Shown: positions 39,120-42,248 of the stretch, piece by piece | Layout: every line of letters starts with the position of its first letter | How positions within the stretch are numbered: the first letter of the stretch is position 1 | Assembly (NCBI GenBank): GCA_013816895.1 | Contig: JACDDR010000006.1 | Location: forward strand, 1-64,000 | DNA: 64,000 nt | Direction: 5' to 3' | Source: Bacteroidota bacterium | GTDB lineage: Bacteria; Bacteroidota; Bacteroidia; B-17B0; Aurantibacillaceae | Made by a program: the position numbers and the translations under genes | The notes under the pieces: model-generated | Databases searched by the model: none | The model's input: only the letters and a program-made list of their open reading frames with translations | Told to the model about the DNA's origin: nothing

Positions 39120-40034
39120 ATGTGTAAAATCTCCTGTCTTCTTTTTTGTTTTATTGCTACGCTCTTTTCTTTTTCACAAACAGAGAAAGAGTACAATAAT
39201 GGTCACGGAGGAAAAATAAAATTGCCACTTGGGGATCTTTCTTTTGCGGACAAGTTGATCTCCTTCGTTCCCGGAAAACCCGCGCCGATGGAACTGAACG
39301 CTAACCCAAAGGATGCCGTGGGCTTGCCTGACTTTAATGAACAGCAGGTTACAGGTTTTGTTTCGCTTGGTATTGGCGGCGAACTTGTACTTGCGTTTAC
39401 CAATAATGCGCTGGTAAACATTGATGGGCCGGATCTGTATATTTTTGAAGTAGGCAGATACATAGAAGAAACTATCCTGTATGTTTCGAAAAATGGAAAG
39501 AACTGGAAAAATGTGGGGAAAATAGGCGGAGGCAACGCTCTGGTAGACATTGGGGACTCCACTGCGCCCGGGGAAATTTTCAGTTACATTAAATTGCAGG
39601 ATGCAAAAACAAGCGCAAAAAACGGGGACAGGGTTTGGCCTGGTGCGGATATTGACGCCGTGGCCGCAATTGGTTCAGCCAAACAATTATCATTGAATTC
39701 GCTATATCTATTTAATACGAATGAATCAAAAATAAAACCTGAGGCTAAGAAAGATCTGGATGCCATTATAAAAGAATTAAAAGAAAACCCGGTCTTTAAT
39801 ATAGTAATCGAGGGCCACACAGATAGTATAGGAAATAAGATGGCAAATAAAAAGCTTTCGGAAAACAGAGCTTTATCTATTAAAACTTTTTTTGTAAACG
39901 CGCTTCCGGAATTTAAAACGCGGATTAAAACGCAGGGATATGCCGATGAGATTCCGGTGGCGACTAATTCAACGCAGGAAGGCCGCGAGAAAAATCGGAG
40001 GGTTGAGGTTTTCTTTATTCCGGTTAAAAAATAA
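39120..40034 (+). CDS. Secreted protein: N-terminal beta-rich surface domain fused to OmpA C-terminal domain
   Basis: Signal peptide; VTGFVSLGIGGELVLAFTNNALVNIDGPDLYIFEVGRYIEETILYVSKNGKNW; OmpA motif IEGHTDSIGNKMANKKLSENRALSIKTFF...GREKNRRVEVFF. Confidence 0.85.
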   Translation: MCKISCLLFCFIATLFSFSQTEKEYNNGHGGKIKLPLGDLSFADKLISFVPGKPAPMELNANPKDAVGLPDFNEQQVTGFVSLGIGGELVLAFTNNALVNIDGPDLYIFEVGRYIEETILYVSKNGKNWKNVGKIGGGNALVDIGDSTAPGEIFSYIKLQDAKTSAKNGDRVWPGADIDAVAAIGSAKQLSLNSLYLFNTNESKIKPEAKKDLDAIIKELKENPVFNIVIEGHTDSIGNKMANKKLSENRALSIKTFFVNALPEFKTRIKTQGYADEIPVATNSTQEGREKNRRVEVFFIPVKK

Positions 40035-40055
40035 GGCTCCCGAAGGAGCCTTAAT
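40032..40055 (+). terminator. Intrinsic terminator-like hairpin
   Basis: aaTAAGGCTCCcgaaGGAGCCTTAatcttt. Confidence 0.7.
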
Positions 40056-40313: not shown

Positions 40314-42248
40314 ATGACCCGAAAAAAATTAACGCGTCTCATTTTAATTTTCCAGCTTCTGGTAAGTTTATGCTACGGACAAAAAGCTCCCGCCTATTTG
40401 AATAAAATCGAATCCAAAAAGGAATTTGATTTACTTAAAGGAGAGCCGCTCTCGAAAAACTTTAACGGAGTTGAGTGCGTTAAGGTGGTATATTCTATTA
40501 CTTCCAAAAAAATTTACTACATAGAATCGAAACGTTACCGTTGGCATCACGTGTTTGTGCAGGAAATATTAAACGATCAGCAGGATTTGGAACAGTTTAA
40601 TTCAAGGAATTATAGTTCTGGTAACGACAGGGATTACATCCTGGCAACATTTAATTATAATGTAAATACAAAAAATTATTTTCTTCAATTCGCCGCCTGC
40701 GACGATCCGAATGATGAAATGATAAGTATCCTGGTTGAGAAAGTGAAACAAACATTTTTCAAACAAGACCAGTTTAAACTTCTCTTAAACTCAACTGTTT
40801 TGCTGCGTCGTAAAAAAGAATTGCAAAAAAACTATCAGACGCTTACAAGTGATGAGCTTTTTAAAAATCAAAACTATCAGTCCATTTACGCAGGCAAAAC
40901 TACCGGAATATTAAAATTTATATCCGCTGATTCGCTTCGCAAAAACAAAGACTACTCATCGTTTATTCTCATACTAAACGGTACTTCTAACCAATTGCCC
41001 GTTTGCAAAGCGGTTGTAACCAACGAATTTCAAACCCCGTTAAGTCACATTTGTCTTTTAACCGCGAGCCGGAAAACGCCCTGCGCCGCGCAGAAAAATA
41101 TTTTTACAAACGACTCGATAAGAAAATATGATAATCAGATGGTAGAAATAACGGTTGGTAAGGATAGGATTAAAATTATTAGAGCTAGCGCGGAAACAAA
41201 TAAAACAATTAAAAACGTCCGGAAAAAAAATCTGGAAGCTGATACGGTAAATAAGCTCATGGCAGATCTCCTGAAATTATCTTACAAAAGCAAAAAATCA
41301 TACGGCTCAAAAGTGTGCAACCTGGCTGAACTAAAAAAAATAAAATACAAGAAAGTGGGTCTTGTCACTCCCGCAAAGGCTTTCGGAATACCTTTTTTTT
41401 ATTATGCAGAACATATAAGGCAAAGTAAAACCAACCTGCTAGTCTCCGCATTGCTTAATGATACAGCGTTATTAAAAAATGACAGCCTTGTGGATCTTGA
41501 GTTAAAAAAAATCAGGTCTTCAATTAAAAAATGGCCTCTTGAAAAAGCAATGGCTGCAGCAATTAATGCAATGTGTCTTGAGCGGTTTGGAAAAATAAAG
41601 ATTCGTTTCCGTTCTTCTTCCAATTGCGAGGATGAGTCGGGATTTAATGGCGCAGGACTTTATACTTCTGAAACCGGAAATTTAAATGACTCGTTGAAAA
41701 GCGTTGAGGCCGCTATTAAAAAAGTATGGGCCAGTTTATGGACCCTTAGGGCGTTTAAGGAAAGAACATTTTTTAATATCAATCACGCAACTGTTTTCAT
41801 GGCGGTGCTGGTTCACCCGGCAGTGGATGATGAAATTCTGAATGGCGTTGCGGTGACCAAAAATTTATACCGCAGTTACGATTTCGGCTTTGTGATAAAT
41901 ATGCAGAAAGGCGAGGAAGAAGTGGTGTCGCCAAAACCCGGAATAACCTGCGAGCAAGTAGTTTCATACATGAACAACAGTTATGCTTCTTTCTACAATA
42001 AAACACGCGCCGCGGATTGGATCTGTTTTTCATCTTTAAGCAATGACAATTCCCTACTAACAGGTGATGAGTTAATGGACCTCACCCTTCAGCTCGAAGC
42101 CATCAAGAAACATTTTTACGAAGTATATCGTTTGTGGAATAAAACAGAGTATAAAGATTTTGGAATGGATGTTGAATTTAAACTCATCGAAAGAATAGAC
42201 AAGAAAAGAATATTTCTATTCAAGCAAGCCCGGCCATATAATAATTGA
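40314..42248 (+). CDS. Exported protein with PEP-utilizing (phosphohistidine-like) and PPDK/PEP-synthase ATP-binding domains
   Basis: Signal peptide MTRKKLTRLILIFQLLVSLCYGQ; TNEFQTPLSHICLLTASRKTPCA (phosphohistidine-like loop); GSKVCNLAEL, IKIRFRSSSNCEDESGFNGAGLYTSETG (PPDK_N-type). Confidence 0.8.
   Translation: MTRKKLTRLILIFQLLVSLCYGQKAPAYLNKIESKKEFDLLKGEPLSKNFNGVECVKVVYSITSKKIYYIESKRYRWHHVFVQEILNDQQDLEQFNSRNYSSGNDRDYILATFNYNVNTKNYFLQFAACDDPNDEMISILVEKVKQTFFKQDQFKLLLNSTVLLRRKKELQKNYQTLTSDELFKNQNYQSIYAGKTTGILKFISADSLRKNKDYSSFILILNGTSNQLPVCKAVVTNEFQTPLSHICLLTASRKTPCAAQKNIFTNDSIRKYDNQMVEITVGKDRIKIIRASAETNKTIKNVRKKNLEADTVNKLMADLLKLSYKSKKSYGSKVCNLAELKKIKYKKVGLVTPAKAFGIPFFYYAEHIRQSKTNLLVSALLNDTALLKNDSLVDLELKKIRSSIKKWPLEKAMAAAINAMCLERFGKIKIRFRSSSNCEDESGFNGAGLYTSETGNLNDSLKSVEAAIKKVWASLWTLRAFKERTFFNINHATVFMAVLVHPAVDDEILNGVAVTKNLYRSYDFGFVINMQKGEEEVVSPKPGITCEQVVSYMNNSYASFYNKTRAADWICFSSLSNDNSLLTGDELMDLTLQLEAIKKHFYEVYRLWNKTEYKDFGMDVEFKLIERIDKKRIFLFKQARPYNN

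Follow-up and report, generated by a model that had tools for sequence, protein, structure and literature searches.

A family of probable exported dikinases in Bacteroidota with a phosphohistidine domain ahead of a C-terminal ATP-grasp domain

Within a 64,000-nucleotide stretch of DNA from a Bacteroidota bacterium (contig JACDDR010000006.1, positions 1 to 64,000; hereafter the window), the open reading frame listing contains a complete gene at 40314-42248 on the forward strand, which begins with ATG and encodes a dikinase-like protein of 644 residues. We consider it probable that this protein is a catalytically competent, Sec-exported, ATP-dependent phosphohistidine dikinase that phosphorylates an acceptor in the cell envelope, and the sequences of its relatives indicate that the Bacteroidota family as a whole probably shifts phosphate to an extracytoplasmic target. 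The cytoplasm is where ATP-dependent phosphotransfer would be expected, and no ATP should be on hand beyond it. A conserved, active-looking dikinase beyond the membrane would imply that the envelope has an overlooked source of ATP or of some other high-energy phosphate, or else that an overlooked donor exists, together with an undescribed phosphorylated envelope component. Searches of the open-access literature turned up no account of such exported dikinases, novelty being judged against that literature and family libraries only.

Residues 1-22 (40314-40379; the parts of the dikinase gene and the stem-loop described below are all on the forward strand) form a predicted Sec signal peptide with a charged start, a hydrophobic core, a terminal xQ and probable cleavage between CYG and Q. 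The N-terminal signal is not an artefact of start-site choice, because the frame upstream of the ATG is open for only 8 codons (giving 652 residues) and the next methionine is residue 136; together with the hydrophobic N-termini of nearly all relatives, this upholds the signal peptide proposed in the initial annotation. A terminator-like stem-loop at 40032-40053, a match to consensus only, follows the upstream OmpA-like gene and suggests that the dikinase gene is transcribed alone as a monocistronic unit. The product of that upstream gene (39120-40034) is exported and has an OmpA domain at its C-terminus, its N-terminal part being unassigned, and an ABC-F-like gene begins 222 bases 3' of the dikinase gene. 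Comparison of the neighborhoods of relatives revealed no conserved neighbors of the dikinase gene in the window protein's own family. The dikinase is the sole PPDK_N protein found in its genome (a 93%-complete assembly).

Of 87 genomes assigned to the window bacterium's family, 12 (counting the window genome) encode full-length relatives with 44-66% identity, and distant relatives with about 30-39% identity were found in Flavobacterium-type and other families, the distribution across Bacteroidota being widespread yet patchy, even inside one genus. The relatives comprise a short subgroup of about 625-660 residues, in which some longer members carry an extra CarboxypepD_reg-like N-terminal domain, a type IX secreted subgroup of 820-1320 residues with a Por_Secre_tail, and a long subgroup of about 970-1000 residues; the viral contigs searched held no relative of the dikinase. 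When the sequences were scored by hydropathy and motif scan, a hydrophobic export segment was evident at the N-terminus of nearly all relatives; most carried an export signal of the Sec, lipoprotein or type IX (sorting tail) kind, with several proteins lipoprotein-like and a few apparently membrane-anchored. The use of several different export routes argues that a location outside the cytoplasm is under selection in this family, and these relatives bear out the earlier guess that an uncharacterized exported family exists.

Behind the signal peptide, an N-terminal domain is followed by a His domain and then by an ATP-grasp domain that runs to the end of the protein. The latter, a PPDK_N domain (residues 329-642; 41298-42239), was identified by Pfam with an E value of 1.4e-17 and 64.4 bits against a cut-off of 27, and it contains the ATP-site residues K333, R433, E439, D619, E621, Q638 and R640, which places the protein in the PPDK_N superfamily; the same domain was matched in 15 of 15 family members searched. 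The putative swivelling phosphohistidine domain (residues 186-300; 40869-41213) includes His245 of the motif QTPLSH (41046-41048), the presumed phospho-acceptor. For this region, the window protein alone gave no Pfam match, GWD1_pHisD included, while 8/15 members matched GWD1_pHisD with a best E value of 1e-3, below the curated cut-off; a direct search with PF22973 over 297 genomes returned zero matches, the control being unmatched as well, so that this blank carries no weight. A profile of the 15 members searched against the PDB reached PEP synthases at E values of up to 2e-15, essentially over the ATP-grasp region. Profile comparison linked the His domain of the short subfamily to that of the long subfamily (97.5%, E = 6e-12) and the latter to PEP synthase (84%, E = 7e-6). 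Compared directly, the short family and PEP synthase gave no significant match (3.7%), so the link is transitive; the best alignment of the two nevertheless superposes both catalytic SH pairs. Altogether, these results substantiate the phosphohistidine domain, the PPDK_N domain and their His-then-ATP order, likened to that of glucan, water dikinase (GWD), that had been read from the window sequence.

These findings also bear on whether the protein could simply be a cytoplasmic PEP synthase or PPDK whose start was misread. PEP synthase and PPDK consist of an N-terminal ATP-grasp domain, a His domain and a PEP/pyruvate barrel. The PPDK_N similarity would suit such an enzyme, but the domain order is reversed, a Pfam search found no PEP/pyruvate barrel in the window protein, NCBIfam PEP synthase scores fell far under their cut-offs, there is no alternative start, and export signals are family-wide. 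We regard this explanation as exceedingly improbable, and domain content had already ruled out a cytoplasmic PEP synthase/PPDK identity; canonical PEP synthase activity, named in the initial annotation as an outcome that would overturn its reading, is excluded on the same grounds of order and missing domain.

Conservation was assessed in 49 sequences (30 short, 7 type IX and 12 long). His245 was present in 49/49, Lys333, Arg433, Glu439, Asp440, Arg484 and Asp619 were likewise invariant, and Glu621, Gln638 and Arg640 were invariant save in one sequence shortened by a contig end or frame break. This pattern argues that the protein is not a decayed pseudoenzyme, and the loss of catalytic residues against which the earlier reading was to be checked did not appear. 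A non-catalytic scaffold for binding or sensing would agree with the fact that no ATP is known outside the cytoplasm, but it does not account for the near-absolute conservation, across a large divergence, of His245, Lys333, Arg433, Glu439, Asp619, Glu621, Gln638 and Arg640; we therefore find a scaffold quite improbable, and the repurposed scaffold offered as an option at the outset loses weight.

The N-terminal domain (residues 28-178; 40395-40847), with conserved K57, H78 and F81, gave no Pfam or PDB match and is proposed to be the acceptor or partner domain. Modeled alone, it reached a pLDDT of 67.6; in a fold search of this model against the PDB, the best matches were cofilin-like (E = 0.05, TM 0.35) and not convincing, and viral matches to the domain were likewise weak. 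A full-length AlphaFold model built from four sequences yielded no confident structure (pLDDT 49.5), which, along with the weak direct match of the His domain to PEP synthase, counts against the best explanation.

Under that explanation, an exported and active dikinase, the ATP-grasp domain would bind Mg-ATP and deliver a phosphoryl group to His245 of the swivelling domain, with release of AMP and Pi, and His245 would then swing to pass the phosphate to a hydroxyl of an acceptor in the cell envelope, for which a glycan or surface protein held by the N-terminal domain is the most plausible candidate. Homology to PPDK, PEP synthase and GWD predicts that ATP should phosphorylate His245, which should then transfer the group to the acceptor. 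DUF4956, VTC or NTT-HEAT membrane proteins may supply the phosphoryl donor outside; the activity, ATP as the donor, the acceptor and this supply are what we infer.

A divergent DUF4956 gene directly adjoins the dikinase gene, tail-to-tail, in 7/7 carriers of the Flavobacterium type (a genus name we assign by inference) and of family f3 (L055-L061), two families with no neighbor in common besides DUF4956. The gene was found in 0/8 sampled non-carriers of family f5, and the association between DUF4956 and dikinase carriage was significant (Fisher p = 1.6e-4), with 6/7 carriers in one genus and so few independent events; by chance, a DUF4956 gene is expected within 10 kb at about 0.5% of loci. 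At one locus of another family (L126:3954-8580), VTC, DUF4956, DUF2490 and dikinase genes lie consecutively on one strand. The window genome holds two VTC-DUF4956-DUF2490 clusters (L087:7766-9841 and L088:2941-5066) on other contigs, unlinked to the dikinase gene, so that the adjacency seen at the seven Flavobacterium-type and f3 loci and at L126 is missing there; this, with the lack of conserved neighbors in the window protein's own family, weighs against the best explanation. The linkage to DUF4956 and the VTC polyphosphate polymerase in some lineages would also fit an enzyme working in reverse or with another donor, harvesting phosphate from outside polyphosphate or phosphorylated compounds, or using VTC-made polyphosphate. 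However, VTC is absent throughout the genomes of the seven Flavobacterium-type and f3 carriers, known PPDK_N enzymes use ATP, and no polyphosphate site was identified in the protein, making such a role distinctly improbable.

The ATP-driven reading gains from the long cousins. At 9/12 of their loci, the dikinase is accompanied by an NTT-HEAT protein, which joins a TLC ATP/ADP-transporter-like domain to HEAT repeats, and most of these loci also hold two exported Beta-lactamase2-family proteins (L066:3745-11837, with equivalents in L067-L072, L074 and L075); PF03219 scored above cut-off in 4/5 NTT-HEAT proteins tested. Among 327 genomes of the phylum, the long dikinase occurred in 10, NTT-HEAT in 14 and both in 9 (Fisher p = 1.9e-13, a statistic that ignores relatedness), the two genes lying about 150 kb apart in one genome (G178). 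Such linkage and co-occurrence suggest that an NTT-HEAT carrier brings ATP to the exported long dikinases. NTT-HEAT fusions are widespread and uncharacterized (PMC5381601). The window genome has no NTT-HEAT homologue and no periplasmic ATP source known for it, a point against the best explanation, and PF03219 searches of carrier genomes gave sub-cut-off scraps only. Tentatively, and at a low probability, we envisage dedicated extracytoplasmic phosphorylation systems in Bacteroidota, in which exported dikinases would modify envelope glycans or proteins and would be supplied through the inner membrane, the short family by DUF4956 (with or without VTC) and the long family by NTT-HEAT nucleotide carriers. 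If true, NTT-HEAT and DUF4956 proteins would gain a first role. These gene links offer testable partners for two uncharacterized membrane families.

A Streptomyces plasmid protein (WP_331760287.1, L135:5518-7527, annotated as "PEP/pyruvate-binding domain-containing protein") aligned end to end with the family over all three domains (BLASTP 2e-21, hhalign 99.7%), the conserved N-terminal domain included. Unlike the Bacteroidota proteins, it lacks a signal peptide, and it is flanked by ATP-grasp and MFS transporter genes; the three-domain arrangement is thus not inherently exported. The plasmid segment L135:4157-8837 encodes an ATP-grasp protein, this cytoplasmic relative and an MFS transporter, possibly a natural-product pathway. 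Its setting, and the fact that RedH is matched by the ATP domain of the window protein, and the PigC and RedH models by that of the cousins, would be in keeping with a ligase-like or tailoring enzyme whose phosphoryl relay activates a small molecule for condensation, in Bacteroidota an exported metabolite or envelope precursor. We judge this unlikely, as no biosynthetic cluster surrounds the Bacteroidota genes, and type IX tails and export are ill-suited to a small-molecule synthase.

Compared to known systems, the dikinase reading finds its closest layout in plant GWD and PWD, which share a phosphohistidine domain ahead of a C-terminal ATP-grasp (PPDK_N) domain, the lack of a PEP/pyruvate domain, a catalytic His (His992 in potato GWD; PMC12892837) and the weak GWD1_pHisD similarity. 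Unlike these enzymes, the window protein is exported, has 644 residues and carries a different N-terminal domain, in which no starch-binding or other recognized carbohydrate-binding module was matched by Pfam. With PEP synthase and PPDK it shares the swivelling His domain and an ATP-grasp domain with identical key residues, and differs in reversed order and the missing barrel. Rifampicin phosphotransferase, PigC and RedH likewise combine PPDK_N and His domains and act on non-pyruvate substrates, but their ATP domain is N-terminal and they are cytoplasmic. DUF4956 is reported from Gram-positive Pel clusters, where it neighbors a polyphosphate polymerase and the CotH kinase (PMC7112168). These VTC-DUF4956-CotH clusters resemble the dikinase loci in their DUF4956 partner and extracytoplasmic kinase theme, with the dikinase in place of CotH. 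CotH has a kinase fold unrelated to that of the dikinase.
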